From Halofilum ochraceum (GTDB lineage: Bacteria; Pseudomonadota; Gammaproteobacteria; XJ16; Halofilaceae), in contig NZ_LVEG02000020.1 in the NCBI RefSeq assembly GCF_001614315.2, positions 1 through 64,000 of the forward strand: DNA of 64,000 bases. The letters are read 5' to 3'. Of the stretch, positions 11,098 to 48,439 are shown in pieces. Positions within the stretch are counted from its first letter, which is position 1. Every line of letters starts with the position of its first letter. The position numbers and the translations under genes were made by a program. The notes under the pieces were generated by a model. The model worked only from the letters and a program-made list of their open reading frames with translations, did not search any database and was not told the DNA's origin.

Positions 11098-12258
11098 TTA
11101 CAGTTCCCGGCAAGTTCCGTCCATGGACAACAACCGACGGTAGAAATCCAGCAGCTTCTCCCCCTCATGCCCCCAGTTGTAGCGCTCTTCGACTGCCGCC
11201 CGTCCACGCTCGCCCATGCGTTCGGCCTCTTCAGGGTGATCGAGTATCCACTGCATCGCGGACGCAATCGCCTTCGGATCGAGCGGATCCACGAGCAGAC
11301 CGCAGCGCGCCTCGTCGATAATCCGGCGCCAGAGGGGAAAATCCGACGCGATCACGGGGAGCCCGCAGGCCATGTACTCAAACATCTTGACAGGGTACGC
11401 ATCCGGGTAGCCACCCTCCGGGTGCAGCACCACCAACCCCGCCCGGGCACCGCCCAGCAGATCGGCGATCTTCGCCCGCCCAGCCCACCCATGGAAAACG
11501 ACCCGCGACCACGCGGCATCCGCCCGCATTTCCGCTTCCAGCGCGTCCGGTCGGATCGCACCGGCGAGCTGCAGCCGGGCACCTCCCGATTCGGGCAGGT
11601 GAACCAGCGCGCGAACCATCTCCCGAGCCCCGCGGATGGCCTCAATTGCGCCGACGTACACGAAATCCGGCGGGCGTCGGGCATAGGGTATGGCCTCCGC
11701 CGGAGCCAGTTCCGACAGGATGGGGAAATTCTGCACCACCGCGATCTTGCCGGCGGGGAATCTTCGGGCAATCAGCGGCGTCGCCGCAACGACCCCCGTA
11801 AACACCCGCCCAGCCACCCACTCAACCCCCGCGAACAACCACCCCACCGGCCGCCGCAGCGGCCGCGGCAACCAGGCTTTCGCGAGAATCTGCCGGGGCA
11901 CGTCCTCATGCACATCATAAATCACCCGGTACCCCAGCAGAGACAGGATCAGGCACGGCGGAATCAACTCGGGATCGTGGAAATGCACGACGACCGGCCG
12001 AAGCCGTCTAACATGCTGAACAACACGCCAACCTCCAACTACTGATCGGCCGAACCGACCACTTGGCAGGATACCGACATCGATACTCCGACAGCCTGCG
12101 TACTCGCGATCAACACAACCCGCTCCATCCGCGACCATGAGCATGCACCGGCGTGGCCAAGCCTGCGTCAGCACACGTAACTCCTTGCCCCGGATACGGG
12201 CATCATCGCGTCGATGAACCGTCGTTATATGTAGAATGCCGTTGGTTTCCCTGTCCAC
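11098..12258 (-). CDS. Glycosyltransferase family 4
   Basis: GT-B glycosyltransferase of about 386 residues. It starts with ILHITTVHRRDDARI, typical of GT4 enzymes of O-antigen and exopolysaccharide clusters. The C-terminal half contains VVLHPEGGYPDAYPVKMFEYMACGLP, the donor-site loop with the conserved EX7E glutamates. I favour a GTG start at 12258, just before ILHITTVH; an ATG at 12312 would add 18 residues with no family resemblance. Donor sugar unknown. Confidence 0.88.
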   Translation of the reverse strand: MDRETNGILHITTVHRRDDARIRGKELRVLTQAWPRRCMLMVADGAGCVDREYAGCRSIDVGILPSGRFGRSVVGGWRVVQHVRRLRPVVVHFHDPELIPPCLILSLLGYRVIYDVHEDVPRQILAKAWLPRPLRRPVGWLFAGVEWVAGRVFTGVVAATPLIARRFPAGKIAVVQNFPILSELAPAEAIPYARRPPDFVYVGAIEAIRGAREMVRALVHLPESGGARLQLAGAIRPDALEAEMRADAAWSRVVFHGWAGRAKIADLLGGARAGLVVLHPEGGYPDAYPVKMFEYMACGLPVIASDFPLWRRIIDEARCGLLVDPLDPKAIASAMQWILDHPEEAERMGERGRAAVEERYNWGHEGEKLLDFYRRLLSMDGTCREL

Positions 12259-12312
12259 ACTCGGTTCCGAATAAAGTAGTTGCTTATGTATCCGACACCA
12301 ACCCCGGCCCAT

Positions 12313-12676
12313 CCGCCATGCTCAGGATTGTAATTGCTCTACCGTTGATCGAGTTCGATCATCGACCACCATACGAATTTAGACTCTCCAACACTGACGT
12401 CGTAAATATTCACCGCAATACCTTCATAGACCCGATTACCCGAGACAGCGCGGGATCACCCGATTGATCAAGATCGCTGACTCCGAACTGATCATGACAC
12501 TTGCAAATCCGGTACCGCCGTTAGGCCAGATCGCCCGACCTAACTCGCCGCCTCTCACCAGTCGTTCCGCACACTCGCAACACACGATCATAATTCGATT
12601 GTCATCGTTTCAATAAACACACCCACCCTGCGTCACTGCCAATCTGTCGCAATACCTCCGCGACGGCCACCACACG
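12313..12676. other. Gap with no recognised feature
   Basis: About 360 bases, visibly more AT-rich than the housekeeping parts of the window. I find no gene, repeat or clear terminator. It separates the methyltransferase gene from the downstream glycosyltransferase and may carry a secondary promoter. Confidence 0.45.
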
Positions 12677-13258
12677 CTATCGGCGCACTGCTCCTCGTAC
12701 CCACACCAGTCGCTCAGGCCGTTTCGGCCTGCTTATCTCTTTAAGAAGGTCCGCGTCGAAATCGAGAAGATCAGAGTATCTCGCATCAATATCCCGCGCG
12801 CTCGAGAATGTCCGAACGTGCCCCGCAGAGTCATAATTTGGAACGCTTATAATCACCTTGGACCCGCGAGGCAGCCGCCTGATAAGCTCCCGATCTTTCG
12901 TAATATGTTCTAACACTTCGGTTATGATAAATGTTCCATGCTCCGCAAATAGATGCTCCGCGTCAGCCGAAAACACATCCATTTGTTTAAACGTGAACGA
13001 TGGGACGTAGTCTTGCGCTTCATTAATCCGAACGCCGGAAAAATCAATACCTTGATAATTTACAAATCCGGCTCTACGCAATGCCTCCGCGCAACGTCCC
13101 GTTCCGCATCCCACATCCAATATTGGTCCGGCCGGGTTCCACTGATGGAGAAACTCCACAACGGTATCGTATATCGGCCGCCATGGTGATTCTTCATAAG
13201 GCACCAATACACGATCCATCCTCGAATCGTAGAAATCCGATTGTTGTTCCTTTCCCAT
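12677..13258 (-). CDS. Class I SAM-dependent methyltransferase
   Basis: 193-residue methyltransferase of the Methyltransf_11/UbiE-like type. The SAM-binding motif I is ILDVGCGTGRCAEAL (about residues 45-59), followed by an acidic motif II (GIDFSG) and TEVLEHI as the post-II block. Its position in the polysaccharide operon suggests methylation of a sugar hydroxyl or of the chain end, but the substrate is unknown. The C-terminus is short and basic. Codon use looks less GC-rich than in the flanking genes. Confidence 0.85.
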   Translation of the reverse strand: MGKEQQSDFYDSRMDRVLVPYEESPWRPIYDTVVEFLHQWNPAGPILDVGCGTGRCAEALRRAGFVNYQGIDFSGVRINEAQDYVPSFTFKQMDVFSADAEHLFAEHGTFIITEVLEHITKDRELIRRLPRGSKVIISVPNYDSAGHVRTFSSARDIDARYSDLLDFDADLLKEISRPKRPERLVWVRGAVRR

Positions 13259-13809
13259 TTTCTAAACTCCAGTCTATTGACATTAACCCTCCTGCCCCGT
13301 CAGTTGCAGCGCATCAAACGAATCGGGAAATACTAGTACCCGGACCTGCACTAGAGATGGTGCCTCACCGTTTTTCGCCACCCCAGAAGACGCGACAGGG
13401 CGTGTAGTTGAGAGGTACCGCGGTTACGCTCGCAGTTCAACCGGACATGGTGATCCGCGCGCTCATGCGCGGGGCAACGCCGCCGGACACGCACCGGCGG
13501 AAAGATCAGCGCGTACCAGCTCGAGCTCGGCGCGTCACTAGCCAATCGAACCTGGCACGCGCACCCGGTCACCCCCCGGATCCAGCACGACCTCGACGTC
13601 TTCGGAGAGTTGTAAAAACGTACCTGCCGCCAGCACGGCTATCTATTCAATCGGAAGTACGAGCACACAGACGCTGGACGAGACATTGCGCCGAAAGACG
13701 CCATTCCCAACCATCAAGAAGACACACAGAATCGCCGCCATGACCTACCATAATCGGGTTCCCCGGCGACCCCGTTTGTCGGGTACGTACGGAATCAGCA
13801 CAGTGATCG
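13259..13809. other. 550-base gap, no convincing gene
   Basis: The stretch separates the ABC-type membrane protein from the methyltransferase. Small open frames exist on both strands (for example 13408-13743 plus) but are arginine- and proline-rich and resemble no family I know. It is where the ATPase half of the adjacent transporter might have been expected, yet I see no Walker motifs. It may be decayed DNA. Confidence 0.45.
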
Positions 13810-14877
13810 CTACGGCTGTAAAGACTGCTGGCCTTCCAGAGTATCGACAATCTTGTAGTACCTCGATACTTGGCTATAAAACCTATTGATGTTAGTGATG
13901 GCCGCCATCAAACCCTTGAGGCCCGAAAATGTCCGTTGCAAAACGAGGAAGTACAAAATGACCATGCCCCACTCAACAGTCCCACCTCCGACGCGATACG
14001 CCAAGCTCACAAAAAGCACCGTAACCGCAGCGATCAACGTGATTCCGCTTATTAGGCTGCTTTCGGCAATCACCTTCAACCGGTCGTCTCGTGAATTAAG
14101 GTTTCGCACGACTTCAGGACTTTTCAGAGGATCACTATAGGTCGACCGAGAGTCTCCTTCCGTTGCCGACCTCGAACCACGCGCTTTTACGGCGTTTCGG
14201 TACGCCTTTGCCGCCCCTGCTTCGCTCCGTTCCCACACCTCGTTGATCTTTGCGGCTTTCATGCTCGTTTGCCCCTGGAATTTTACTGATACCGCACCTA
14301 CCACGGTCAACGCCATTGTGACCACAGGATCCAGCGCAAACAGGATCACTCCTCCCACGCTCAGCATCAAACCTGGCAATACGGCTCCGAGGAATACGTA
14401 GACAACTCGCCCATTCGTCGTCGCATACCCTTTTATCGATCTGTATAGCAGTCTGTCCGCGTCATTCCTGTTGCCAAAGTCCAACTTCTTGACCTGGCTC
14501 ACGTCGTATGCGCGTTCCAGCGCCCGTAGGACTCTTCGGATGCAGTACTCTGCATACCCACGGCGAACCTTTACCGAAAGCACTTTCGCCAAGAACTCCG
14601 CTAACGCTCCGGAAGCGAGAAGCCCCAGGATCATAAACACGGACAAACCGATCCCGACCGGAGATAGTGCGTCCAATCCCTGCACGCCCGGCACAAGTGT
14701 TGCGCCCGACTGCACCCGACCAACGTAATGCGCCGCCACGCCCAGCGCACTGAACTGAGCCACCAGCCCCCATATGCTCAGTCCTACAACAGGGATCGAC
14801 CACTTCCGCTGCTGCCAAATTCCATCGGAGAACACACGTCGCGCAAGAACCGCATACGTCTTGATACGCGCACGCAC
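13810..14877 (-). CDS. Orphan ABC-exporter-type transmembrane domain protein
   Basis: 355-residue membrane protein with about six hydrophobic segments (near residues 28-50, 75-98, 158-180, 183-200, 280-300 and 303-325). The end, with FSGLKGLMAAITNINRF then SRYYKIVDTLE, looks like the last helix and linker that lead into the nucleotide-binding domain of ABC exporters. The frame stops there; no Walker A, signature LSGGQ or Walker B is seen here or in neighbouring frames. It could be a truncated exporter, a half-transporter using an ATPase encoded elsewhere, or a scaffold. A role in glycan export is only inferred from context. Confidence 0.6.
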   Translation of the reverse strand: MRARIKTYAVLARRVFSDGIWQQRKWSIPVVGLSIWGLVAQFSALGVAAHYVGRVQSGATLVPGVQGLDALSPVGIGLSVFMILGLLASGALAEFLAKVLSVKVRRGYAEYCIRRVLRALERAYDVSQVKKLDFGNRNDADRLLYRSIKGYATTNGRVVYVFLGAVLPGLMLSVGGVILFALDPVVTMALTVVGAVSVKFQGQTSMKAAKINEVWERSEAGAAKAYRNAVKARGSRSATEGDSRSTYSDPLKSPEVVRNLNSRDDRLKVIAESSLISGITLIAAVTVLFVSLAYRVGGGTVEWGMVILYFLVLQRTFSGLKGLMAAITNINRFYSQVSRYYKIVDTLEGQQSLQP

Positions 14878-14888
14878 TTCGCCCTCTC

Positions 14889-15779
14889 CTATGCTCGACC
14901 CAGAAATGTTTTTCCGGCACGTCTTATTTTTTCGATAACAGTCTCCGATTTTGGATCTGGCTGGTCGCTTTCATCGCGTTCCACTTCGTACATACGAGCT
15001 GGCTCAAATAAAAACTTACGCTTCCAGTGCTGCAGCCCTTCACCGCCTTGGTAAAATCCTGCGTACACTAGGTAGTCCAATCCCGTCGCATGCGGATTAT
15101 TCGGATCCAATAACCATTCCATAATCGCGAGATGCAAGCGGTACATGACCCCGGTTTTCAGATAATCGCCATGACCGATAATCAGCGAGTACAAGGCGAA
15201 GTTCCCTAATCGCCGGAGATCAATATAAGCGACCAATTTTTCATCAGTCTGCACGCGCCCCTGGGAATAGCCTTCAACCGATTCGAACGCTCCCCACCAG
15301 ATGTCATAGTGTTTCGTGCACGCCGGCTCACTCCAACGGTGATAAGAATCAGGCCATCCCCCCAGTTCCTCAACCGTCTTGTGATACGAATCGCGCATTG
15401 CACCACCACTCCGGACAGCCTTGGATTCATTGATTTCGTGGATATCCGGAACGAATAGACGGCGATCAAAAGGCGCGCAACGGATACCGAACTTCTCGGC
15501 TTTCTTCGCCTGCCGTAGTGACTCACCCTTTGATCTCTTTCGTACCGCTTCCCGATATTGCTCATGCGTCACCCCGCTCAGACGGAGGACGGCTGCAACG
15601 ACCTTTGGCGGTTCATCCTCCTTACCACTTATATAATTTCCATTGCCAAGTCGCTCACGCGATTTACCTACCATCCGCGAACACTTTCTGCTGGTCCTGC
15701 AAATCGCATTATCAAGCGCGAAGTCTACGAGAACTTCGTTACCTTCTTCGGCTTGCTCATTCATCGGTTTCGCGTTCAT
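14889..15779 (-). CDS. Hypothetical protein, possibly GNAT-like
   Basis: 296 residues, no signal peptide or membrane segment seen, and I do not recognise the family. The central part, with KLVAYIDLRRLGNFALYSLI, then HGDYLKTGVMYRLHLAIMEW, has the strand-strand-helix rhythm of GNAT or leucyl/arginyl-transferase folds. An acyltransferase that modifies an amino sugar is therefore a possible but weak guess. The C-terminus (ESVIEKIRRAGKTFLGRA-like) is basic. It ends 11 bases before the ABC-type gene and is probably co-transcribed with it. Base composition is lower in GC than most of the window. Confidence 0.55.
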   Translation of the reverse strand: MNAKPMNEQAEEGNEVLVDFALDNAICRTSRKCSRMVGKSRERLGNGNYISGKEDEPPKVVAAVLRLSGVTHEQYREAVRKRSKGESLRQAKKAEKFGIRCAPFDRRLFVPDIHEINESKAVRSGGAMRDSYHKTVEELGGWPDSYHRWSEPACTKHYDIWWGAFESVEGYSQGRVQTDEKLVAYIDLRRLGNFALYSLIIGHGDYLKTGVMYRLHLAIMEWLLDPNNPHATGLDYLVYAGFYQGGEGLQHWKRKFLFEPARMYEVERDESDQPDPKSETVIEKIRRAGKTFLGRA

Positions 15780-15996
15780 GTCCCTTTATGCCCTCTCACT
15801 TACATGTCCCGGAACAGCATCAATCGTCTCCATTTCGATCCGACCAGAGCCACGGATCTGTCCCGGACCCGCTGCGGATCCAATGAATCGACGCAGCGAC
15901 GGTCGTCTGCGCGGCTGCTCCAACTTCTATCACACTCGGACGGGAGTGCTGCGCCCCCCGTATAGTTTTAGCGTTGGCCCGCATACTGGCGCCGGG

Positions 15997-17949
15997 TCAG
16001 CATTCTCCGGCAGGCTCATGGAGGTCATAGCCAAGGTTGACGAGTAAATCGCCCGCAATCGCGTCGAATCTCGCGATTTCTTCCGGCGAAAGATCCCTTT
16101 TGTATCGTCCAACCGAGGTTCCATTAATCGGTTGAGCCACCTGCGCTTTACTCGGGTGGGCAACACTGGAAGACACTACGGAGTGTTCATTTTCCTGGTG
16201 GGACAAGAGAGCCTCTTGCCAGCCTTCCCCGAGCCAATTCATGATCGGCCCCAACGTTTCCCGCGGCGACGAGACGATATCTTCGTACCTTACTTCTCGA
16301 TACTTAAGGCCAGCACTCGACGAGCGAGCTCCCTCTACCAATGCGACCCATCCTTCTGCAGCCGCCTCTATATCGCGGTAGCCCCACGAACCATGTTCAG
16401 CCAGTTGCGAAGCAGCGACATCTCGACCGTCCCGAATTACGTGGAGGTAACAGGCTTCGGGCCACATCCCGCCGTATCTTGTGAGGTTCTTCACCTCCCG
16501 CATAATTTTAAAGCCCCATCTACTCGCGCGACTCTCGCGCGCCGCATACTGGCCCAACCGCTCCACTAGCGCGCAGCGATCCTCGAAGGACTCGATATCC
16601 GAATTACGCTCTTGAGACACGCGCCGTATTATGTCGCGCAAACTGTTCGGCGAAATACCGGCTCGCGAACAACGGTTAATAAATTGAATACCCGGCTTCG
16701 CATCTTCATCATCTGTCCTGCTGCCATGGCGGACACTACTCCCCCCCTTTGTGGATCGCGCGACGAGGCATCTCATGATATAGGGACCGAGATTGGGAAG
16801 TTTTTTCCCATTAAAGTGCAACTCTGGTCCGATCGCCATCTCGGAGTGCGAATCAAGGATTACCGAGGCCAGGGTGGTCCCGGACCGGCCATCACCGCCG
16901 ATAAACACCGGCGGCGAGCACGCCTGCTTATACTTGTCGACTGTTGGATTGTTCCTCAATGCGACGTCTGCAAATCGCTTCAGCCACGTTCCTCTCCCTT
17001 TCGATCGAACACCACGCGGCTTCCTCACCAACGTGTCCGGCCAGACCGCTTCTCCCCACTCTCCACGACCATACATTGCAATTATTTCCTGGTACCACTT
17101 CGCCGACGCCAGCCGGGCCGTCTCCGAGTAAGGGGTCGCATAATATTGCGGATGCAAAAGGATTCTATAACGGCCACCGGGTCGCATCGTTTCGATAAAT
17201 CGCCTCGGGTCCCTAGACGCTACGTCGACCCGTTGACCGTTCATTCCACCATCGCTATAACCTCCGTCGACCCGGACGGTGTGCCGATTGTGTACCCATT
17301 TCAACTTACTTCGAAGATCAGGTGGCAACTCAATTGCGGCATTGGATTGTCCGTCAGCACCACGAACGCCGCCATGAGGTGAGAAGAATTCAATGTTAAA
17401 CTCTTCCTTCAGGCGCGCATAATCCGATCGCAATATTTCTTGCGCTTTGTCCAGATCAAATTCCGCTCTCTCGACGGCGTTCGAGTGATAACCAATCACG
17501 AACCCCTCGCGTTCAGCCTGCTTAAGAGTCTCATAGCAGATTGGATAAGGCTTTTTCCGAACAATGCCCTGCTTCGCCAACGTGACTCGCTCTAGCGCCT
17601 CATTGAATATCATGACGTTCGATCGCAGACCAAAACTCCGCTCGGCTTCTATCGCGGCTGTAGTGCGGTCCGGATTGTTATCAACATCATGCTGGATAAG
17701 AAGGTAAATCTTACTTCGATCTATTCGCCCGCTCTTCAGCCCTTCTTTCCATCTTTTCCACTCATCAATATAGTGTTCTTCGTAATTCTCGTCACCTTGC
17801 CAGCAAAGGTCCGCGTACGTGATTACCTCGATTAGATCTCGATTTCGGTACAGGAATCGAAAGAAATCCAGCAGGAATTCAAACGGGATCGCACCATCGC
17901 GTTTTTTCTGCATTGTATAGTCGTTTTGAGAACCAGGGTCTCGGGTCAT
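15997..17949 (-). CDS. Fused polysaccharide-deacetylase-like / sulfotransferase protein (fusion 1)
   Basis: 650-residue two-domain protein. The N-terminal domain (about 20-305) has a polysaccharide-deacetylase-like pattern: QHDVD at 86-90, GYHSN at 153-157, SPHGG at 190-194 and LLHPQ at 264-268. The C-terminal domain (about 345-645) is a PAPS-dependent sulfotransferase: 5'-phosphosulfate loop GGDGRSGTT at 351-359 and 3'-phosphate motif VIRDGRDVAAS at 504-514. The order deacetylase then sulfotransferase is that of animal heparan sulfate NDST enzymes. Inference: it deacetylates an N-acetyl amino sugar and N-sulfates the free amine. The metal site is not the canonical CE4 HxxxH, so activity needs proof. 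No signal peptide; cytoplasmic. Confidence 0.8.
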   Translation of the reverse strand: MTRDPGSQNDYTMQKKRDGAIPFEFLLDFFRFLYRNRDLIEVITYADLCWQGDENYEEHYIDEWKRWKEGLKSGRIDRSKIYLLIQHDVDNNPDRTTAAIEAERSFGLRSNVMIFNEALERVTLAKQGIVRKKPYPICYETLKQAEREGFVIGYHSNAVERAEFDLDKAQEILRSDYARLKEEFNIEFFSPHGGVRGADGQSNAAIELPPDLRSKLKWVHNRHTVRVDGGYSDGGMNGQRVDVASRDPRRFIETMRPGGRYRILLHPQYYATPYSETARLASAKWYQEIIAMYGRGEWGEAVWPDTLVRKPRGVRSKGRGTWLKRFADVALRNNPTVDKYKQACSPPVFIGGDGRSGTTLASVILDSHSEMAIGPELHFNGKKLPNLGPYIMRCLVARSTKGGSSVRHGSRTDDEDAKPGIQFINRCSRAGISPNSLRDIIRRVSQERNSDIESFEDRCALVERLGQYAARESRASRWGFKIMREVKNLTRYGGMWPEACYLHVIRDGRDVAASQLAEHGSWGYRDIEAAAEGWVALVEGARSSSAGLKYREVRYEDIVSSPRETLGPIMNWLGEGWQEALLSHQENEHSVVSSSVAHPSKAQVAQPINGTSVGRYKRDLSPEEIARFDAIAGDLLVNLGYDLHEPAGEC

Positions 17950-18391
17950 GTCATCAGATCTCTATATGTCTCGTCACAGTCGTGGCCACTCAATCCAGCT
18001 GGCCCAACCGAACTACATCGGGATAGACGCGTGTCGCCGGATCAGTGATCCGGCGACGGGCTATTGGTGCGCGCTACGTACGCTCATAGCAGGACCATAT
18101 TGGATTCGGCAGCGCTAATGGACACTGGACTGAAGCCCGCCGTCAAAACGACGGACCCATATAATCCTTATACGACCGTTCAGTCCAATCGACAGGCCAT
18201 GCGAATCCTCGTTGGCTCAGCGTTCTAATTCACAGTGTTGGTCGCAGGGATGTCCGTCGGTTCCTGCGCTAACGTTCGCTAGACAAAGGCCTAGTCGCCG
18301 GTCGCGCGAGCAAGGGAGATTCAAGGGGCGAAAATTACGCAATTTTCCGACCTTCCGTTTGCTTTACACGCCCTGTAAGGCGCGCAGCATA
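17950..18391. other. Structured 440-base gap between the two fusion genes
   Basis: I see no gene. A perfect palindrome with 12-base arms around one central base lies at 18033-18057, about 85 bases upstream of the fusion 1 start. Upstream in the transcript, GGACTGAA (18127-18134) pairs with TTCAGTCC (18179-18186) and encloses a smaller CCGTC/GACGG hairpin. Terminator, operator, RNA leader or remains of a mobile element are all possible. Confidence 0.5.
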
Positions 18392-20437
18392 TTAACCATA
18401 GGATTTATACCTGAGTTCGAGGCCGCCTAAATCCACCTTGGACGCTGACTCAGACTTCGAAATATGTAATGCGACGTCGAAACGGTGACTTGACGGATGT
18501 GGCGCAAAAGCAAATTTGATGCTTTCTCGATTCTTATCCAGTACCCCAATCCGTCGTTTGTAGATCTGTTTTCCATCCTTCGCGTAGCTCAATGCCCAGA
18601 TTGTCACGCATGAATTGCGCGGCGCCTCCTTCCGGAGTTCGCCTTGTATATACATCATATATGGCGTCGGCCATCCGGAAGCGGTGTTCTTGGTCGTAGC
18701 CATCTCGTTCCAGCGACTCCCCCCGATCGTCACGTACGCATGACGACCCTCTCCATACGGTACGACAACCATCTTACCCGCCGCAAAGGATACGTCGCAG
18801 TTCCCACAATAGAGTCGATCCGAATTTATCCGGATATTCTCAGGGTATTGACCTGTCTTCGGCCTATTCCCGAGGGCTCGTTTGATTTTGTTTAAGAATC
18901 GCCCCCAAAACACATCGACCGCACGTCTCCACCCTTGCCCGATGCGTGGCCTGACTTCGCCATAGCCCAGGCGCACATTGACTCCACCGCCAATTTTCGC
19001 AAATTGGCGTTTCTGTTCGATCGTCCAGTCCGGGTAGCTGGGGAAGTCATTCGATTTTGACGCATTCACGGTGCGGCCGATCAGGTCCGCGCCGAGGCGC
19101 TGATGGTACGGAATGCCGAGTTTCTGCAGCTCCGTTTCGAGAGCGTCCGGTCCTGAAGCCATTTTTTCGAGCGAGATATGGGAGTTACACGTGACAATCA
19201 AACGCTCATTCACTTCGGCGACATACTCGCACACCCTTTCGAGACGCGTCATCGCGGCGACGTTCTCGTGTCGCAGTCGGGGATGTGCATGATCCTCCGG
19301 TGTGTCATACCAGTCGCGCTGCATAAGTGATCGGACTACGTTCGCAGGATTTCGGCGCAGGTGAACATACGTTGCTGCAGGAAAGAATCGCTTCAGGTCG
19401 TTTATGAATGAGGGAAGGTAGACATTGACTTCGGCGTAGTCTTTCGAGATCTGGCTGATTTCTTCCCAGGCATCACCCAAGAGGGTTTCGACACGTTCGG
19501 GCTCTTCCTCAAGCATTCGCGCGGCGGCGGTCGCCTTCTGGGCAGCGTCCCCGTTATGGTATTCCTGATTCAGGATGTACTCGTGGCGCGCTTCCAGCGG
19601 AGTTGCTTGCTGCAGTACCTCGCTCAGCCATTTGGATCCAGAGCGGGCTGGTGAAAGGAAAAAATAGAGTCTGGGGGGACCGCGCCAGTGGATCGGGTGG
19701 ATTAGTACCTGCCAACGCTCCTGTCCGCGTGCATACGAAAGTGGATCGGGACTCCGTGTCCAGTCCCCTCCGCTATCGCTGAAATACCGGTCAAACTCCA
19801 GGTGCCAAGCATGGTAGTCGATACCGAACTTGGCCATCGGAATCGACCATAATGGATATCGACAACCGTCTGGCCGCAGCGCTTCGTGACTCGCCGGGTA
19901 GTGCAGGCGCCGGCGATTATGGTCGGACTCATAAGGACCTTCGGCGGTTCGACCATCTTCATTCGCGAACGTATCGTATGGTTTAAGTTCGCTGAAACAC
20001 CAGTAATTGCTGACGCTGTGTTCATAACAACGGCGATCCCCGTGAGCCGCGATCCCCGTAACGGGAACCCCAGATTCACGAAGCTTCTGGAGCTGCTCGG
20101 CGATGGTTTGCGCGGGATCTTCGATCTCTCCGCCCGCCCATTGGGCCATCGCGTTTACATGCAGCCCAATCTCGTGACCGTAGTCCTGCAGTTGCAGGCA
20201 CTTTTCGGCCAATCGCTCATCCGTCCAGTACGGGGCGGTCGGTAGCAGAAAGTACGTGGCCCGAGCGCCCGCCTGGTGCTCCCAGTACGCCATTTCGAGC
20301 GCCACGTCGATGTCATAGTCCACGTCATGACGGAGTCCGCAGAGCCCTCGCGCCTCGGGTTGCTCGTGGAGCTCCCGCAGGGGGACGGTCTCTCCGAAAT
20401 GCTCGAGGTATCGGCTGTATTCCTCGAGGATCGCCAT
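18392..20437 (-). CDS. Fused polysaccharide-deacetylase-like / sulfotransferase protein with C-terminal extension (fusion 2)
   Basis: 681 residues, three parts. Residues 1-250 are deacetylase-like: RHDVD at 36-40, IGLHVN at 90-95, AAHGD at 130-134 and LIHPIHW at 245-251. Residues about 255-500 are sulfotransferase-like: P-loop SPARSGSKW at 262-270 and 3'-phosphate motif HLRRNPANVVRSL at 359-371. Residues about 530-681 look beta-rich and could be a carbohydrate-binding module; I do not recognise the family. It shares the domain order of fusion 1 but little direct sequence, so the two are diverged paralogues or separate fusions. The start codon follows the upstream glycosyltransferase stop directly, so translation is probably coupled. 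Confidence 0.8.
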   Translation of the reverse strand: MAILEEYSRYLEHFGETVPLRELHEQPEARGLCGLRHDVDYDIDVALEMAYWEHQAGARATYFLLPTAPYWTDERLAEKCLQLQDYGHEIGLHVNAMAQWAGGEIEDPAQTIAEQLQKLRESGVPVTGIAAHGDRRCYEHSVSNYWCFSELKPYDTFANEDGRTAEGPYESDHNRRRLHYPASHEALRPDGCRYPLWSIPMAKFGIDYHAWHLEFDRYFSDSGGDWTRSPDPLSYARGQERWQVLIHPIHWRGPPRLYFFLSPARSGSKWLSEVLQQATPLEARHEYILNQEYHNGDAAQKATAAARMLEEEPERVETLLGDAWEEISQISKDYAEVNVYLPSFINDLKRFFPAATYVHLRRNPANVVRSLMQRDWYDTPEDHAHPRLRHENVAAMTRLERVCEYVAEVNERLIVTCNSHISLEKMASGPDALETELQKLGIPYHQRLGADLIGRTVNASKSNDFPSYPDWTIEQKRQFAKIGGGVNVRLGYGEVRPRIGQGWRRAVDVFWGRFLNKIKRALGNRPKTGQYPENIRINSDRLYCGNCDVSFAAGKMVVVPYGEGRHAYVTIGGSRWNEMATTKNTASGWPTPYMMYIQGELRKEAPRNSCVTIWALSYAKDGKQIYKRRIGVLDKNRESIKFAFAPHPSSHRFDVALHISKSESASKVDLGGLELRYKSYG

Positions 20438-22069
20438 TTATCGGGACTCATCGGCCAGGGACTTTGGAGGCATAGCGGTGCAAAATCTGCTGTACAATGC
20501 CTGCAGATGTGCCGCCTGTGCAGGCCACCCGTATTGCTCGGCGAGTTCGACTCGGCGCTCCGGCGACAGAATGTACCTTGCCCGCGCGGTAATCGCCTGG
20601 TGGATAGCTCGCCCGATCGCTTCGGGGTCCGTCTCGTCCATCACTACACCACAGGCGTTCGCGTCAACGAATCGCCGCATCTCCAGAAGATCAGAAACTG
20701 CGACAGGTACGCCCGCAAAGACGCTTTCGAGCAATTTATTGGGCATACAGTAGTAGTAACTGAGACAGACATTCTGGATTGGCAACACACTCACGTCGGC
20801 GGTACCGATGTAGCCAACGACTTCATTCGGTGCCACCGGATCGATCAAGTGCAGCCTATCCCGAACACCAAGCTCGATCGCCAGTGCAACCAACTCGGTT
20901 TCGGTCGCCAGCCGGCGTGGCCCAACGGTTGCAAAGTGGAGATCGGGCATCGTAGCGAGTGCGCGCACGACCAGGTCCAGCCCCCGGTTGACGGTGACGT
21001 TGCCGACATAGACGCACAGTTTGTCGTCTGGTCCCAACCCGATATCCTGCCGCACAGTTGTTCCCGGAGTGATATTCGCGTCGAACAGCGGGGCATTCAT
21101 GACGACGGCGGGTCGTGGTATGCCGTAGTCGGTTCGCAGATGATCCGCTATGCTTTCCGATACCGTGACGACCGCATCGGCTCGGCGGATGTATTTGCGT
21201 TCGAGTATGCGCCGCCGAAGCCAAACGAACCACGGATAGCTGGAGTTCCGGTGCATTTCCAGTTCGTGCGAGTCATACACCAACCACCCACCGACATCCG
21301 CCGCGGCTCGGCCACCGGCAGGCAGCGTGGTGAGATCGTGTGCATGCACAGCGTCCGGTCTGAGTTCCGCGATGTGTCGACGAGCTGCCGTTCCGAATTC
21401 GTCCGTCTCTGAGAACCAGTACATCGTCGCCATGATCCGCTTGCCAAGGCGCTTGACCTTGCTCAAGGTTTTCTTGGCGATGCGTATTGCGCCGCGAACG
21501 ATACGTTTAACCCCACGTAATAGTTTTTGGGCTAGCCGTTTTACAGGGGGCGGCAGATTTCGTGTGGCACAACGCCAAGAAACTCCCGCTGGTTTTGGCG
21601 AGTTCTCTCCGGAGTCGTTTCCGGACACAGGTGAACGACGCGTGTCATGAGAACTTGTGACCTCGGACGCGGGAACGGTGGTTTTGCCCGCGCTTCGGGC
21701 CAAACCGTCTGTTTCACCATTGTTTTGGGAGTCGGCGGCTGAAGGCGTCGTCGCTTGAGTTTTATCAGGCGCCTGGACTCGCACGCTGCCGACTCCGCCC
21801 AAACGGGATCGACCAATAACGGCTGTGCGCACTCTGCTTTTCAGGGTTGGCCAGTCCAGTGGTACCGGCTCTACCCGATGGTACTGCACACCGTTACGCT
21901 CCTCACGTACGGGAAGATCACCGAACTGACGACACACGACGGTGACCTCATGGCCTACATGCACCAACGCCTCCGCCGACTTGATCACACGACTGTCGTT
22001 CACGCAGGAGTTGTTCACAAGCATGACCACATGCATTGACCGTGTATCCTTGGTGAACTCCGGATGCAT
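20438..22069 (-). CDS. Glycosyltransferase family 4 with internal basic insert
   Basis: 543-residue GT4 enzyme. The N-terminal Rossmann half starts at HVVMLVNNSCVNDSRV (13-28) and resumes at about residue 225 (AELRPDAVHAHDLTT). Between them lie a low-complexity hydrophilic stretch (about 98-165) and a strongly basic, probably amphipathic helix (about 172-215), suggesting membrane association. The C-terminal half has VYVGNVTVNRGLDLVV and the donor loop MPNKLLESVFAGVP with the EX7E glutamates. The start ATG overlaps the wbpE stop as ATGA, which supports this start. Donor unknown. Confidence 0.88.
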   Translation of the reverse strand: MHPEFTKDTRSMHVVMLVNNSCVNDSRVIKSAEALVHVGHEVTVVCRQFGDLPVREERNGVQYHRVEPVPLDWPTLKSRVRTAVIGRSRLGGVGSVRVQAPDKTQATTPSAADSQNNGETDGLARSAGKTTVPASEVTSSHDTRRSPVSGNDSGENSPKPAGVSWRCATRNLPPPVKRLAQKLLRGVKRIVRGAIRIAKKTLSKVKRLGKRIMATMYWFSETDEFGTAARRHIAELRPDAVHAHDLTTLPAGGRAAADVGGWLVYDSHELEMHRNSSYPWFVWLRRRILERKYIRRADAVVTVSESIADHLRTDYGIPRPAVVMNAPLFDANITPGTTVRQDIGLGPDDKLCVYVGNVTVNRGLDLVVRALATMPDLHFATVGPRRLATETELVALAIELGVRDRLHLIDPVAPNEVVGYIGTADVSVLPIQNVCLSYYYCMPNKLLESVFAGVPVAVSDLLEMRRFVDANACGVVMDETDPEAIGRAIHQAITARARYILSPERRVELAEQYGWPAQAAHLQALYSRFCTAMPPKSLADESR

Positions 22070-23178
22070 CAGGCGGTGATTCTGTTTGCTGCCGTGCAGG
22101 CTGCGTCTACCACCTGCGCCGCATTGGATTCTTGCATATAAGGATGCATCGGGAGGCTGAGCACTTCCGATGCGGCTTTGCTTGACGCTTCCAGATTCCC
22201 TGATTCAGCCAGTCCAAACACAGGCTGGTGATGTAGTGGCACCGGATAGTGCACGGCGGTCGGTATGCCCGCTTCGTTCAGCGCACGTTGGACAGCGTCG
22301 CGCCTTTGGATGCGGATCGTATACTGGGCGTACGCGGAGGTGTTGCCTGCCGCGATGTGCGGAGGCGTGATTGCCCCGTCGGTCTGCTCGTTGATGAGCC
22401 TCGTGTAGGCTGCGGCGACCTGCTGGCGGCGCTCGATCTCGTCCGGGAAGATATCGAACTTGGCGAGCAGGATGGCGGCCTGCAGGGTGTCGAGCCGGCC
22501 GTTCACGCCGATACGGGTGTGGTGGTAGCGCCGCTCCTGCCCGTGCACGCGGATCTCACGCATGCGCTGGGCCAGGGTCTCGTCGTTCGTAAAGCAGGCC
22601 CCGCCGTCGCCGTAGCCGCCCAGCGGTTTGCTCGGGAAGAAACTGGTGCAGCCGATGGTGGTGAGGCCGCAGGAGGGCCGGCCGTTGTGGGTGGCGCCAA
22701 GGCTCTGGGCGCCGTCCTCGATCACGGGCAGTGCATGGCGGGCGGCGATTTCGTTGATCGTGTCGTAGTCCGCGCATTGACCGTACAGGCTGACGGGCAT
22801 GATCGCGCGGGTGTTTTCCGTGATCGCCGGCTCGATGCGCTGCGGGTCGATGTTGTATGTCGCTGGGTCGATGTCGACGAATACAGGCGTGGCGCCGACC
22901 AGGGTGATGGCCTCGGCGGTGGCGATGAAGCTGAACGGGCTCGTGATGACTTCGTCACCGGGGCCGATCTCGAGCGCCATCAGCGCGATGACCAGCGCGT
23001 CCGTGCCGCTGGAGACGGTTATCGCGTGGCGCATGTTGGTGTAGCCGGCCAGCTTTTCTTCCAGCTCGCCGATCTCCGGGCCCATGATGTATTTGCCGTG
23101 GGCCAGCACGGCGTTGATCCGCCGGTCGATCTCGGGACGGATGCGCGCCTGTTGGGCGGCGAGGTCGATGAACTGCAC
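22069..23178 (-). CDS. wbpE: WbpE-like UDP-2-acetamido-3-oxo-glucuronate aminotransferase
   Basis: PLP-dependent DegT/DnrJ/EryC1 family aminotransferase, 369 residues. The PLP lysine is Lys184 in FFPSKPLGGYGDGG, and EDGAQSLGA carries the cofactor-binding aspartate. Next to wbpA, wbpB and wbpD genes it most likely aminates the 3-oxo intermediate to UDP-GlcNAc(3NH2)A, as in Pseudomonas aeruginosa O5 biosynthesis. Its stop overlaps the next start (ATGA), showing tight coupling. Confidence 0.93.
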   Translation of the reverse strand: MQFIDLAAQQARIRPEIDRRINAVLAHGKYIMGPEIGELEEKLAGYTNMRHAITVSSGTDALVIALMALEIGPGDEVITSPFSFIATAEAITLVGATPVFVDIDPATYNIDPQRIEPAITENTRAIMPVSLYGQCADYDTINEIAARHALPVIEDGAQSLGATHNGRPSCGLTTIGCTSFFPSKPLGGYGDGGACFTNDETLAQRMREIRVHGQERRYHHTRIGVNGRLDTLQAAILLAKFDIFPDEIERRQQVAAAYTRLINEQTDGAITPPHIAAGNTSAYAQYTIRIQRRDAVQRALNEAGIPTAVHYPVPLHHQPVFGLAESGNLEASSKAASEVLSLPMHPYMQESNAAQVVDAACTAANRITA

Positions 23179-23180
23179 GG

Positions 23181-23783
23181 TCAGCCACCCTCCGTGAGAC
23201 TGCCGGCCTCGGCGAGCTGCATGGCGCCGTCCTGCAGGCGGTAAAGGTCGCCGGAGTACGGGCAGCGGTACTCGCCCTCGCCGTCGACCGGCAGCGGGAT
23301 CTGCTCGCCGTAGCGGCTCATCCAGCCGATCTGCCGAGCTGGTACGCCGACCATGAGCGCGAAGGCCGGCACGTTGCGGTTAACCACCGCGCCGGCCGCT
23401 ATGAAGGCGTGCTCGTCGACGGTGATGTCGCAGACGATGGTGGCGTTGGCACCGATGGTGGCGCCGCGGCGTACCAGCGTCGGGCGGTACTGGTCCTTGC
23501 GCGGCACGGCGGAGCGTGGGTTGTAGACGTTGGTGAATACCATGCTCGGGCCGCAGAAGACGTCGTCTTCCAGGGTGACGTCGTCGTATACGGAGACGTT
23601 GTTCTGGATCTTGACGTTGTTGCCGATGACTACGCGGTTGCCGACGAATACGTTTTGCCCGAAGGAGCAGCGTTCACCGATCTTTGCGCCGCCGCAGACG
23701 TGGACCCAGTGCCAGATCCTGCTGCCGGCTCCAATGCTCGCGCCTTCATCGACGATTGCGGTGTCATGCACCTTGTAATCCAT
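23181..23783 (-). CDS. wbpD: WbpD-like UDP-3-amino-glucuronate N-acetyltransferase
   Basis: 200-residue left-handed beta-helix acetyltransferase with many hexapeptide repeats (for example [26 protein letters not shown]). It would add the second N-acetyl group to give UDP-2,3-diacetamido-2,3-dideoxy-glucuronate. I chose ATG 23783 ([12 protein letters not shown]); a longer frame runs into wbpB. It starts 2 bases before wbpE in the stop-start sense and follows wbpB by 13 bases. Confidence 0.94.
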
Positions 23784-23796: not shown

Positions 23797-26137
<2,341 letters not shown>

Positions 26138-26141
<4 letters not shown>

Positions 26142-28558: not shown

Positions 28559-28843
28559 GGGCGTTCTTCCTTGAACGGGGCTCGGGTTGTCTGGGGCCAT
28601 TGGCCGGCCTGTTGTCATGGTAATCGGTGCCGGGTGGCCATGCCAGTGGTGGGTTGGTGAGGTTGGTGGGACTTCGTGTGGGCGGGGTTCTCGCCGGGGT
28701 GCAGTGCTGGCGCTGGATTGCCGCGGTCGCTTCGCTCCCTCGCAATGAAGGTTGTTTCTTGTGCGGATAATCCGTCCGTGCGGGCTTTGTAGAGGTTGTG
28801 CCGTTGGGTTTCGCTGGCGCTCAACCCAACCTACGGGAATGGC
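28559..28843. repeat. Repeat-bearing gap between the beta-CASP and DUF2235 genes
   Basis: A GTTGGGTT/AACCCAACCTAC-type repeat lies at 28801-28835. A weaker element with TCGCTTCGCTCCCTCGC lies near 28727-28743. The stop codon of the metallo-hydrolase is the TAG of a GTAGG just beside the first repeat. Nothing else is recognised. Confidence 0.7.
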
Positions 28844-30211
28844 CTACGGGTCTGGGATGATTCTGGTGATGTGCTGCAGGGATTCGGCCAGTGCGTGGCG
28901 GGCTTCGGGGTCGCCGTGGACGAGGCGGATTTCTTTGGGCGGCTGTTCGATGCCGTGGACGAAGTCTCTGAGATCCTGGGCGTCGGCGTGGGCGGAGTAG
29001 CCGTTGATGGTGTCGACGCCGGCCTGGATGGTGTAGCGGTGGCCGTCGAGTTCGACCTGGCCGCCCTGCCCGGCCTGCTGGATGGCGCGGCCGGGGGTGC
29101 CGGCGGCCTGGTAGCCGACGAACAGGATGTGGTGGCGTTCGTCTTCGAGCATGGCATGGAGGTAGTTGACGACGCGGCCGCCAGTGCACATGCCCGCGGC
29201 GGCCAAGACGACTGCCGGGCGGCCGCTCGCCGCCAGCATCGCGACCATACGTTGATGCTCTTCGTGGCTGTCGACGGTGTGCAGGCTGTCGAAATCGAGC
29301 GGATGGCGGGCGGTCTCGAGGCGCTGCTGCGCTTCGGCGTCCCAGAACGGGCGCAGTTCACGGTAGACCTCGGTGAAGCGGGCGGCCAGCGGGGAGTCGA
29401 CGATGATGTCGAGCTGCGGCCATTCGCCCTCGCCGGCGTGGATCATCGCCTCTAGTTCGTACAGAAGTTCCTGGGTGCGGCCGATACTAAACGCCGGGAT
29501 GATGACGGTGCCGCCATTGGTGTGCGCGCGTTCGATGGTGTTGCGCAGACGGGCGGTGCGATCTTCGCGGCCTTCGTGGCGACGGTCGCCGTAGGTGCTT
29601 TCGAGGACCAGGCGGTCCGCGCGGGTGGGCGGCTCCGGTGCGGGAAGCAGCGGCGCGCCGGGGGCGCCGAGGTCGCCGGAGAAGACGACGCGTTCGCCGC
29701 GTGCCTCTCCTGCCCCGCGAACGTCGATCTCGACGTAGGCCGAACCGAGGATGTGGCCCGCCCGCTGGAGGCGGACGCGGACTTCGCGTTCCGGGTCACT
29801 GATGACGGTGGTCCAGCGGTCATAGTCGAGCGGCTGCAGGCGGTCATCAACGGTGGCGAGGAAGCGCTCGATGAGATCGTGATCACGGGTGAACCCGATC
29901 TTGAGGGCGTCCTCTATGACCAGCGGCAGTAGACGGGCGGAGGGCGTGGAGCAGAGGATCGGACCGGTGTAGCCGGCGGCGAGGAGGTGCGGCAGGCGGC
30001 CGATGTGGTCGATATGCACGTGGGTGACGATCAGGGCCGCGATGTCGTCGACCGGGAAGTCGATGCGGTGGCGTTCCAGCGTGTCGGCTTCGCCGTGATC
30101 GGCGCCCTGGAAGAGGCCGCAGTCGATCAGCAGGGATTGCTGCGGGGTGATCTGCAGGCGGTGGCAGCTGCCGGTGACACCGGTGGCGCCACCGTGGTGG
30201 TGGATCTGCAT
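28844..30211 (-). CDS. Beta-CASP metallo-beta-lactamase-fold ribonuclease-like protein
   Basis: 455-residue protein of the CPSF73/YSH1-like MBL group with RNA specificity domain. The zinc motif HVHIDH is at 64-69, and additional ligands are in AGHILGSA and FSGDLG. The beta-CASP part has AFSIGRTQELLYEL and the C-terminal GYSAHADAQDL with VHGDPEA. Bacterial members are mostly uncharacterised and are presumed RNases. It lies alone between repeat-rich gaps, downstream of wbpM, with no clear functional link to the glycan genes. Confidence 0.9.
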   Translation of the reverse strand: MQIHHHGGATGVTGSCHRLQITPQQSLLIDCGLFQGADHGEADTLERHRIDFPVDDIAALIVTHVHIDHIGRLPHLLAAGYTGPILCSTPSARLLPLVIEDALKIGFTRDHDLIERFLATVDDRLQPLDYDRWTTVISDPEREVRVRLQRAGHILGSAYVEIDVRGAGEARGERVVFSGDLGAPGAPLLPAPEPPTRADRLVLESTYGDRRHEGREDRTARLRNTIERAHTNGGTVIIPAFSIGRTQELLYELEAMIHAGEGEWPQLDIIVDSPLAARFTEVYRELRPFWDAEAQQRLETARHPLDFDSLHTVDSHEEHQRMVAMLAASGRPAVVLAAAGMCTGGRVVNYLHAMLEDERHHILFVGYQAAGTPGRAIQQAGQGGQVELDGHRYTIQAGVDTINGYSAHADAQDLRDFVHGIEQPPKEIRLVHGDPEARHALAESLQHITRIIPDP

Positions 30212-30743
30212 GGGCTCTTCCCTGAGCGTGGGTAATGTGGGCGGGGATTAGAGCAGCAGCGACGCGTGGGGGCAAGGTGGCAGGAACACCGTAGGTTGGG
30301 TTCAGCGCCAGCGATACCCAACGCGTCGAGACGTAATCCATCGAACGACTCAACATGGCACCCGCGGATCGCTGGACGCGTTGGGTTTCCTTCGTCAACG
30401 CAACCTACGGAGCCGATGAGCCCGATGCCTCGTGCGGATGCGATCTCCAGCAAGCTCGCTCCTTCAATGACGGTGGCGGTGGATTATCGGGTGGGCCGGC
30501 TTTGTCCGGCGCCGCTCGCGTTCAAGGCATGCACCGAGATCTGTCGCTTGGGAATGCCGGGATTGGGCGGTGATACTCCCCGGCCGGGACCCAATGCCCC
30601 TGGACCGTGCAAAGCTGGCCTACGAATGAGAGGGACTTGAGTCTGGGCGCGTTTGCGAAGGACGAAAACGGGTGCGGTTTCGGTTGTGGTGGGCGCGGGC
30701 GCTTCGGGCCTGCTGCGCGCGTTCGCCTTCGGCGAAAACGCGC
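30212..30743. repeat. Repeat cluster between wbpM and the beta-CASP gene
   Basis: No gene seen. It contains GTAGGTTGGGTT-type repeats at 30291-30322 and 30376-30410 (inverted pair) and a degenerate copy of the long (about 130-base) CCGGCC-ended element at 30490-30623. A GCGCGC-type REP at 30714-30747 supplies the TAG stop codon of wbpM. Confidence 0.8.
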
Positions 30744-39681: not shown

Positions 39682-39835
39682 CGCCGGACAATCAGTCGAT
39701 CACGATTATATGGTTGCGATATCGCTGTCGATAACGACATCCACCTTGGAACATCCTTGTGCCTACCCACATGGTTTCCCGAGTTCGCACCCCGTAATCG
39801 GGGGATGCCTTGGCGACCAGCCCCGAACGCATCAT

Positions 39836-42588: not shown

Positions 42589-42597
42589 TCGACCATA

Positions 42598-46136: not shown

Positions 46137-47864
46137 CTACTTAATGTACCCCATCTTCTCGAGCTTCAGCACGATATCGTGCGCCGCCTGGTCGGGGCTG
46201 ACGTCCTGGGTGTCGAGGCGGATTTCGGGATTCTGCGGTTCCTCGTAGGGGTCCGAGATGCCGGTGAAGTTCTTGATCTCGCCGCGGCGGGCGCGGGCGT
46301 AGAGGCCCTTGCGGTCGCGTTCTTCACAGACCTCGAGCGGTGTGGCGACGTGGACTTCGACGAAGCCGCCCTCGGCCTCGATCATCTCGCGTACGATTCG
46401 GCGCGTGGCCGTGTACGGGGCGATCGGGGCACACAGCGCGATACCGCCGTTCTTGGTGATCTCGCTGGCGACGAAGCCGATGCGCTGGATGTTGAGCTCG
46501 CGGTGTTCCTTCGAGAAGCCGAGTTCGCTCGACAGGTGTTTGCGCACGACGTCGCCGTCGAGCAGCGTGACCGGACGGCCCCCGAGTTCCATGAGCTTGC
46601 TGAGCAGCGCATGGGCGATGGTCGACTTGCCGGAGCCGGAGAGGCCGGTGAACAGGACCGTGAAGCCCTGGCGGTTCTTCGGCGGGCGCGAGCGCCGCAG
46701 TTCCTGGACGACCTCGGGATAGGAGAACCAGTCCGGGATGTCGATCCCCTCTTCCAGGCGGCGGCGCACCTCGGTACCGGAGAGCTTCAGGACGGTCTCG
46801 CTCGCGTCGATCTCGCTGGCCGGAGCGTACTGGCCACGCTCCTCGACGAACGCCATTTCCTTGAACGGGACCATGCCGATGCCCAGCTCGTCGCGGTAGC
46901 GCTCCATGAGGTCCTGGGCGTCGTAGGGGCCGTAGAAGTCCTCGCCGGCGGAGTTCTTGCCGGGGCCCGCGTGGTCGCGGCCGACGATGAAGTGGGTGCA
47001 GCCGTAGTTCTTGCGGATGATGGCGTGCCAGACCGCCTCGCGCGGCCCGCCCATGCGCATGGCCAGCGGCAGCAGCGAAAGTGACGTGGTCTGCTCGGGG
47101 TAGCGCTTGAGGATGAGTTCGTAGCAGCGCACCCGCGTGAAGTGGTCGATATCGCCCGGCTTGGTCATGCCGACGACCGGGTGGATCAGCAGGTTGGCCT
47201 CGGCCTCCTGGGCGGCCCGGAACGTGAGTTCCTGGTGGGCGCGGTGCATGGGGTTGCGCGTCTGGAAGGCGACGATGCGCGTCCAGCCGACCTTCTCGAA
47301 GAACTCGCGCAGCTGGGTGGGCGAGTTGCGCAGGTGTTTGAAATCGTAGTGCGTGGGCGCCTCGATACCGCGCACGCGCCCACCGAGGTAGACCGAGCCG
47401 GCGCGGTTGTGGAGGTAGTGCACGCCCGGGTGCGCGCTGTCGTCGGCGCCGAAGACGTGTTTCGCTTCGAGCGACTTGTCGGGGCGGTAGACGTCGGTGA
47501 CGTCGATCACGCCGATCAGGACGTGTTCGGCATCGCGCAGCGCGACGGTGATGGGTTTGTCGGCGCTCGCGCCCTCGACCTTGGTCGCGAATTCCTCGGA
47601 GACGTCCAGCGTGATCGGCATCGGCCAGAGGGTGCCGTCGGCGAGGCGCATGTCGTCGCGCACGGACTCGTAGTCGGCCTGCGTGAGAAAGCCCTCGAGC
47701 GGCGAGAAGCCACCGTTGAGGAGCAGTTCGAGGTCACAGAGCTGGCGGTGCGTCAGGCTCCATTCGGGGAAGTCACCGGCCTGCGCGGCCAGTTCGGCGG
47801 CGGCGTCCGATGCGAGATAGCCTACTTTGAGGCTGCCGCCGTGCGGCTCGACGAGTCGTGTCAT
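46137..47864 (-). CDS. Bifunctional sulfate adenylyltransferase / adenylylsulfate kinase (PAPS synthase)
   Basis: 575-residue fusion: ATP sulfurylase (about 1-390) then APS kinase (about 400-575). Sulfurylase motifs are QTRNPMHRAH at 201-210 and GRDHAGPG at 295-302; the kinase P-loop is GLSGSGKS at 407-414. Together they make PAPS from sulfate and ATP. This homomeric Sat type differs from the CysDN type usual for gammaproteobacterial assimilation. Standing among six sulfotransferase domains, it most likely supplies the sulfate donor for glycan sulfation. ATG 47864 chosen; longer frames enter repeats. Confidence 0.95.
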   Translation of the reverse strand: MTRLVEPHGGSLKVGYLASDAAAELAAQAGDFPEWSLTHRQLCDLELLLNGGFSPLEGFLTQADYESVRDDMRLADGTLWPMPITLDVSEEFATKVEGASADKPITVALRDAEHVLIGVIDVTDVYRPDKSLEAKHVFGADDSAHPGVHYLHNRAGSVYLGGRVRGIEAPTHYDFKHLRNSPTQLREFFEKVGWTRIVAFQTRNPMHRAHQELTFRAAQEAEANLLIHPVVGMTKPGDIDHFTRVRCYELILKRYPEQTTSLSLLPLAMRMGGPREAVWHAIIRKNYGCTHFIVGRDHAGPGKNSAGEDFYGPYDAQDLMERYRDELGIGMVPFKEMAFVEERGQYAPASEIDASETVLKLSGTEVRRRLEEGIDIPDWFSYPEVVQELRRSRPPKNRQGFTVLFTGLSGSGKSTIAHALLSKLMELGGRPVTLLDGDVVRKHLSSELGFSKEHRELNIQRIGFVASEITKNGGIALCAPIAPYTATRRIVREMIEAEGGFVEVHVATPLEVCEERDRKGLYARARRGEIKNFTGISDPYEEPQNPEIRLDTQDVSPDQAAHDIVLKLEKMGYIK

Positions 47865-48439
47865 GTTCTTCTTTCCGTACTTGCTTGCGGGGTCATCGGG
47901 CGGGGCCCGGGGAGGCGCTGCGATGCGCGTCAGGGCGCGCATTGTACGCGGTTTGGGGCGTTTGCGGGAGGTGGAGCGGCAGGCGGCAGGCGGCAGGCGG
48001 CAGGATCGTAGGCGCGTTTTCGCCGGAGGCGAACGCGCGCATTCGCTGTGCACCGGCGCTGGTGCGCCCGATACGTCGTGCGGGCACGATCGCGAGCAAG
48101 CTCGCTCCTACAGTGGCGCCGTGCCGGAACGCGGCAATACGGGATACTTTGGGCGACGGGTTGTAGGCCGGCCTTTCCCGGCGTGCCTCGCATTCGGGGT
48201 ATGCACCGGCAGCGACCGCCGGGGAATGCCGGCATTGCGCGGTGAGATGCCCGGGCCGTTATCGACCGTCCCGAACCGCGCAAGGCCGGCCTACGTCCGA
48301 GGCGAGCAGCGTAGGCCGGCTTTTGCCGGAGGCAACAGCCGGCATGCATCTGCACAAGGCCGTGGCCTCGTCCGCCGGCTGGCTCCCTTCGGTCGCAAGC
48401 CGGCCTACGTTCCGGGCAAGTGGTAACGAGGCAGGCGAA
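47865..48439. repeat. Repeat cluster between the epimerase and sat-cysC genes
   Basis: No gene seen. Contents in order: GGCAGGC heptamer array (47977-48003), GCGCGC-type REP (48008-48041), GCGAGCAAGCTCGC hairpin (48088-48113), a 132-base CCGGCC-ended long element (48163-48294), a TTGCC-type REP (48311-48343) and a TTCGGTCGCAAG-type REP (48374-48408). All REP and long elements carry GTAG or CTAC at their outer ends. Confidence 0.88.

Follow-up and report, generated by a model that had tools for sequence, protein, structure and literature searches.

Deacetylase-sulfotransferase fusion proteins of Halofilum ochraceum as candidate bacterial N-deacetylase/N-sulfotransferases

The window analyzed here is the 64,000-nucleotide stretch at positions 1 to 64,000 of contig NZ_LVEG02000020.1 of the gammaproteobacterium Halofilum ochraceum. 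Its reverse strand contains the genes for two proteins, P1 (15997..17949, 650 amino acids) and P2 (18392..20437, 681 amino acids), in which a NodB-type deacetylase-like domain is fused to a sulfotransferase domain of the type that uses 3'-phosphoadenosine 5'-phosphosulfate (PAPS). In animals, the heparan sulfate N-deacetylase/N-sulfotransferase (NDST) joins the same two activities, with the deacetylase first. The fusion is real and conserved, and the activity is predicted from the sequences. We consider it likely that P1 and P2 have both deacetylase and PAPS-sulfotransferase activity, and we see an even chance that they are cytosolic enzymes that swap N-acetyl for N-sulfo groups, convergent with NDST. 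The case for N-sulfation of the very nitrogen that was deacetylated is at best evenly balanced. The fusion, the folds, the PAPS-loop motifs, the conservation and the gene context described below were computed.

Domain layout and predicted folds

Both open reading frames (ORFs) are uninterrupted; when the segment was base-shuffled 200 times, the longest stop-free run was 314 codons. P1 contains a deacetylase-like domain at residues 78-272 (17134..17718, with H87-D88-V89-D90, H155, H192, D233 and H266) and a sulfotransferase domain at residues 345-646 (16012..16917). P2 is a three-domain fusion, with a deacetylase-like domain at residues 1-252 (19682..20437, with R36-H37-D38-V39-D40, H93, H132, D221 and H247), a sulfotransferase domain at approximately residues 256-495 (18953..19672), and a C-terminal beta-sandwich at residues 535-681 (18395..18835), which resembles the carbohydrate-binding modules (CBMs) CBM29 and CBM22 in a moderate-confidence model (VIA-align Z 8.2-8.6 to CBMs). 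The motifs that an earlier note on this DNA had quoted for the two proteins were all found in the quoted order, namely HDVD (residue 87), GYHSN (153), PHGG (191), LLHP (264) and GGDGRSGTT (351) in P1, and HDVD (37), GLHVN (91), AHGD (131), LIHP (245) and SPARSGSKW (262) in P2. The arrangement that the note had proposed, a deacetylase-like N-terminal half followed by a PAPS-type sulfotransferase in the order of NDST, is supported by a predicted NodB fold and by matches to the Sulfotransfer_3 family. Of the outcomes that the note had listed as refuting its reading, none was obtained.

Structure prediction, which the note had named as a check, gave a NodB/CE4 deacetylase fold for both N-terminal halves. 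The AlphaFold2 model of P2 has a predicted local distance difference test (pLDDT) score of about 90 across most of residues 11-130, and when it was compared to known structures with VIA-align, NodB/CE4 enzymes filled essentially all leading ranks not taken by CBMs, with PplD as the best match (Z 11.7 over 169 residues). PplD was also the best match to the model of the P1 half (Z 12.4), for which NodB enzymes occupied ranks 1-37 and unrelated barrels had Z-scores of at most 7.8. By Foldseek E-value alone, neither model reached significance (best 1e-3 and 2e-3), and the fold assignment therefore depends on how consistently NodB/CE4 enzymes lead the ranked list. No Pfam match, PF01522 (Polysacc_deac_1) included, was obtained in the N-terminal halves of P1 or P2, and a weak match to PF01522 was seen in 3 of 13 deacetylase-family relatives (best E 0.011). 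A PDB sequence search with the profile of the deacetylase family recovered chance-level matches only, the first of which was a CE4 enzyme (E 0.13).

Among 13 family members, no variation is seen at R36, H37, D38, V39, D40, H93, H132, Y218, H247, P248 and W251 (P2 numbering), and almost none at D221. The equivalents of H-D-x-D, H93, H132 and H247 are also kept in P1, and the invariance spans phage to cyanobacterial relatives. The conserved polar residues map to the C-terminal end of one strand after another in the P2 model (32-39, 89-94, 128-131, 217-220 and 242-246), the usual location of NodB active sites. The tandem aspartate (DD) of motif MT1 was not found, all relatives having HDVD (DxD) instead, while the catalytic histidine of MT5 on the last strand was found in an invariant LxHP.

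In the C-terminal halves, Pfam Sulfotransfer_3 (PF13469) was matched above its curated cut-off of 27 bits by both P1 (69.5 bits, E 6e-19) and P2 (28.1 bits, E 3e-6). The 5'-phosphosulfate-binding (5'-PSB) and 3'-phosphate-binding (3'-PB) motifs are intact in both proteins, which are predicted to bind PAPS, and the P2 motifs SPARSGSKW (262-270) and RRNPANVVRS (361-370) are conserved in three P2-type fusions. The P1 half is similar to tyrosylprotein sulfotransferase (TPST) in a PDB sequence search (E 4e-13) and has 37-40% identity with sulfotransferases encoded by rhizobial plasmids; no significant match was found in a PDB sequence search with P2. One of the closest P1-type sulfotransferases found, on a plasmid of Cupriavidus taiwanensis (L018), has genes for a condensation-domain protein, a GMC oxidoreductase, an aminotransferase and an adenosine 5'-phosphosulfate (APS) kinase as neighbors.

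The earlier note had regarded P1 and P2 as two divergent copies, which they are not. A BLASTP comparison of the two gave no real match, their sulfotransferases differ, the CBM-like C-terminal domain is present only in P2, and the genes are separated by 442 bp (17950-18391) with no evident gene. The spacer between the halves is about 70 residues in P1 versus about 10 residues in P2. Only in the deacetylase halves was a relationship seen, with a hhalign probability of 94.7% when the P1 half was compared by profile to the P2 deacetylase family; the elements shared are H-D-V-D, a histidine following strand three, H-G and an L-x-H-P at the end. Most likely, related deacetylase domains were joined to different sulfotransferases in two separate events.

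Distribution and gene neighborhood

A search for the fused architecture in other genomes, also suggested in the earlier note, recovered P2-type fusions from a genome of another gammaproteobacterial family (G182; full-length, 38% identity over residues 1-677) and from a cyanobacterial metagenome-assembled genome of Coleofasciculus (41% over residues 1-599, ended by the contig edge). The P2-type fusion is rare, with one further genome among 369 gammaproteobacteria, and a P2 profile revealed no additional fused member in 398 Pseudomonadota genomes. Of seven deacetylase homologs identified in the gammaproteobacterial sample, three carry a fused sulfotransferase and a fourth is located in a cluster with sulfotransferases. 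In genome G122, the order is reversed in a sulfotransferase-methyltransferase-deacetylase chain (L049, G122:C17), and in G698 a P2-family deacetylase and a sulfotransferase (PF13469, E 2e-18) are encoded by adjacent genes with an ATGA stop/start overlap. On a phage-like contig (L025), a sulfotransferase gene is located two genes downstream of a P2-family deacetylase. Independent joinings of deacetylase and sulfotransferase suggest that the two halves act consecutively. The G122 cluster separately encodes a protein with the deacetylase domain and a long extension at its C-terminus, and it contains a further sulfotransferase gene. The viral (IMG/VR) contigs L022-L031 carry stand-alone genes for relatives of the P2 deacetylase domain, some of them next to hexapeptide acyltransferases.

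No relatives of the P1 deacetylase half were found in the 369 gammaproteobacterial genomes or in the plasmids, phages and viral contigs searched. When the whole of P1 was compared to 299 Pseudomonadota genomes, only the sulfotransferase half was matched, with no relative of the deacetylase half.

P2 follows a series of wbpA-B-D-E and glycosyltransferase genes on the same strand, which are spaced by gaps of 0-74 bp or overlap if the start of WbpD is corrected. They encode a WbpA-like UDP-sugar 6-dehydrogenase (24825..26141), a WbpB-like Gfo/Idh dehydrogenase (23797..24750), a WbpD-like hexapeptide N-acetyltransferase (23181..23783, the listed ORF to 24056 being overextended at the 5' end), a WbpE-like DegT aminotransferase (22069..23178) and a GT4-type glycosyltransferase (20438..22069), which is 0 bp from P2 and a partner kept beside P2 homologs. 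Judging by similarity, these functions correspond to the synthesis of UDP-2,3-diacetamido-2,3-dideoxyglucuronic acid. The order wbpA-B-D-E-glycosyltransferase-fusion is kept in G182 (identities of 65% for WbpA, 63% for WbpD and 53% for WbpE), where the cluster is adjoined by a PAPS synthase that is 70% identical to that of the window. The latter is a bifunctional ATP sulfurylase/APS kinase (46137..48053, reverse strand) with an NCBIfam equivalog match; it is located 26 kb from the fusion genes, and no other APS kinase was found in the genome.

The PAPS synthase gene belongs to a second polysaccharide block (34596-48053), which also includes genes for a UDP-glucose dehydrogenase, a Wzx-like flippase and four further, stand-alone sulfotransferases (34596-35846, 39836-40714, 40707-41573 and 41812-42588, all on the reverse strand); this region looks dedicated to sulfated glycans. 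At 13810-14877, a membrane protein is encoded that is like the transmembrane half of an ABC exporter, in an ORF with no ATPase domain, and a similar-looking protein is present in the G122 cluster. A short repeated stretch, with translations that read RWVSLALNPTYG, occurs at at least two places within 28700-30400 and is possibly an intergenic repeat element. The GC content falls to 51-60% at 12000-21000, as compared to about 65% on either flank, which suggests that the segment with P1 and P2 was horizontally acquired.

Proposed mechanism and alternative activities

P1 and P2 have no hydrophobic N-terminus, and since they also lack a strongly hydrophobic segment, they are probably cytosolic, in the same compartment as PAPS. 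In the mechanism proposed here, we infer the metal ligands, the N-deacetylation, the N- rather than O-sulfation and the identity of the sugar. The N-terminal NodB-fold domain would hydrolyze the N-acetyl group from an acetamido sugar of a lipid-linked glycan, with a metal probably held by DxD (D38/D40 in P2), H93 and H132, and with H247 as the putative general acid. With PAPS from the PAPS synthase of the cluster itself as the donor, the C-terminal domain would then sulfonate the freed amine and so produce an N-sulfo sugar. In the case of P2, the substrate is probably the 2,3-diacetamido uronic acid for which the neighboring WbpA/B/D/E enzymes are responsible.

Several observations weigh against this mechanism. 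The known sulfotransferases nearest to P1 act on tyrosine, and the more distant model NoeE acts on sugar hydroxyls. The sulfotransferase part of the P2 AlphaFold2 model is poor, the alignment behind the P1 model contained P2-family relatives, so that this fold model is not fully independent, and no fused relative of P1 was found in the genomes, plasmids, phages and viral contigs searched. The metal site implied in the earlier note is plausible as regards the conserved DxD and histidine residues, but the CE4 motif is non-canonical: of the HxxxH in MT2, the first histidine is present, while the second metal histidine is absent in both P1 and P2. The role of the latter may be taken over by a histidine that is invariant at the MT3 position (H132 in P2, H192 in P1), a substitution that is derived by inference rather than from coordinates. 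The missing MT2 histidine is where the deacetylase claim is weakest, because some NodB proteins that lack it are metal-independent or inactive (PMC10967932).

The freed amine may also be acylated instead of sulfated. According to the main rival explanation, which we regard as unlikely but as the strongest of those considered, the NodB half frees the amine, a separate acyltransferase re-acylates it, and the fused sulfotransferase O-sulfates the same or a neighboring sugar. The acyltransferase could be VimA-like or be o14889 (14889..15779, reverse strand), a protein of no recognized family encoded downstream of P1. The explanation is raised by the free-standing phage-borne relatives of the P2 deacetylase, which adjoin either o14889 homologs or WbpD-like hexapeptide acyltransferases (L022, L025, L027 and L031). 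The o14889 homologs (34-35% identity; L028:5723-6448 and L029:5753-6478) are located directly beside the deacetylases on phage-like contigs, one with a terminase gene. Moreover, sugar O-sulfation is known from characterized Sulfotransfer_3 enzymes of bacteria, for example NodH (PMC11625862). However, o14889 matched no family in the libraries used, acyltransferase families included, and the fusion of the halves in several lineages and in both orders points to consecutive action on one group.

It is improbable that the NodB half is a degenerate, non-catalytic domain for glycan binding or scaffolding, which would make P1 and P2 ordinary O-sulfotransferases with an accessory domain. CE4 pseudoenzymes exist, Pfam is blind to the domain and the second MT2 histidine is absent, but H-D-x-D, H93, H132, H247 and their neighbors are as invariant, from phage to cyanobacteria and in P1, as is expected for an active site. 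We consider it still less probable that the NodB half is another amidohydrolase, i.e., a deformylase or an enzyme that removes another N-acyl group, with the sulfotransferase capping the amine. The P1-half model does match ArnD (8t0j, Z 8.6), a membrane-associated NodB-like deformylase in lipid A modification; yet the neighboring genes make an N-acetylated rather than an N-formylated sugar, and no formyltransferase was recognized among the annotated neighboring genes.

Comparison with known systems and significance

The similarity to NDST consists of a deacetylase and a PAPS sulfotransferase in one chain, in that order, a barrel-type deacetylase and a polysaccharide gene context. The deacetylase of NDST1 is Agd3-like, with a metal triad of D320, H389 and H393 (PMC10864358), whereas the deacetylases of P1 and P2 are of the HDVD-type NodB kind with a non-canonical metal motif, and heparan sulfate deacetylase Pfam domains (e.g., PF12062) were not matched in either protein at E<=1. 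The sulfotransferases also differ, those of P1 and P2 belonging to PF13469 only and not to PF00685. Unlike NDST, P1 and P2 have no evident N-terminal membrane anchor and no N-terminal Rossmann-like domain, the deacetylase being preceded by fewer than 80 residues in P1 and starting at residue 1 in P2, which has a C-terminal CBM-like domain in addition. The kinship to NDST implied in the earlier note was thus not borne out, because neither half matches the NDST families; P1 and P2 possibly act in the manner of NDST, but they fall outside that family. That they are true NDST homologs gained from animals is disfavored and hardly credible despite the shared order of activities, given their families and the lack of NDST matches in the PDB sequence searches; NDST and Agd3 were also absent among the structural matches listed, which is weak evidence and not evidence of absence. 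A recent transfer from animals was rejected on family grounds (PF13469, no NDST domains).

Among bacterial systems, the Wbp pathway of Porphyromonas gingivalis makes the di-N-acetylated uronic acid that the wbp genes of the window are predicted to provide, from which a putative CE4-family deacetylase, VimE, has been proposed to remove the C-2 acetyl group, while VimA has been proposed to cap the freed amine with serine or glycine (PMC7468200). The two systems are alike in having the same sugar-pathway genes (wbpA/B/D/E) beside a putative CE4-type deacetylase, with AsnB-like genes in the clusters. They differ in the cap, which in P2 would be sulfate added by the fused sulfotransferase, in the amine-capping role that VimA has in Porphyromonas, rather than an amino acid. 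CE4/NodB enzymes and ArnD are similar in predicted fold, conserved aspartate and histidine residues and the terminal LxHP histidine, but P1 and P2 have DxD for DD, an invariant histidine at the MT3 position with no second MT2 histidine, and a fused sulfotransferase. With NodH, NoeE and animal TPST they share the PSB and 3'-phosphate motifs, and differ from these by the deacetylase fusion. No characterized bacterial enzyme of this fused design was found in the open-access literature searched, in line with the earlier note, and the literature on WbmS was not informative.

In 2020, 75-80% N-sulfation was reported for exopolymers of Pontiella, with no enzymes known to produce it, and the authors stated that prokaryotes had no known sulfotransferase for glycosaminoglycans (PMC7356697). 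Recombinant heparin production is held up by the difficulty of expressing active animal NDST in bacteria, and in a 2026 study an artificial NDST was constructed from a deacetylase fused to a sulfotransferase domain (PMC13353177). As probably cytosolic bacterial enzymes, P1 and P2 may express more readily than animal NDST. With slightly less than even confidence, we suggest that on more than one occasion, and independently of animals, bacteria fused a NodB-type deacetylase whose metal site is non-canonical to a PAPS sulfotransferase, and that the products are true N-deacetylase/N-sulfotransferases, which form N-sulfated 2,3-diaminouronic acid residues in surface polysaccharides. If so, the NDST design would have evolved convergently from unrelated parts, and fusions of the P1 and P2 type would, if their activity is confirmed, be concrete candidate enzymes for N-sulfated bacterial polysaccharides.

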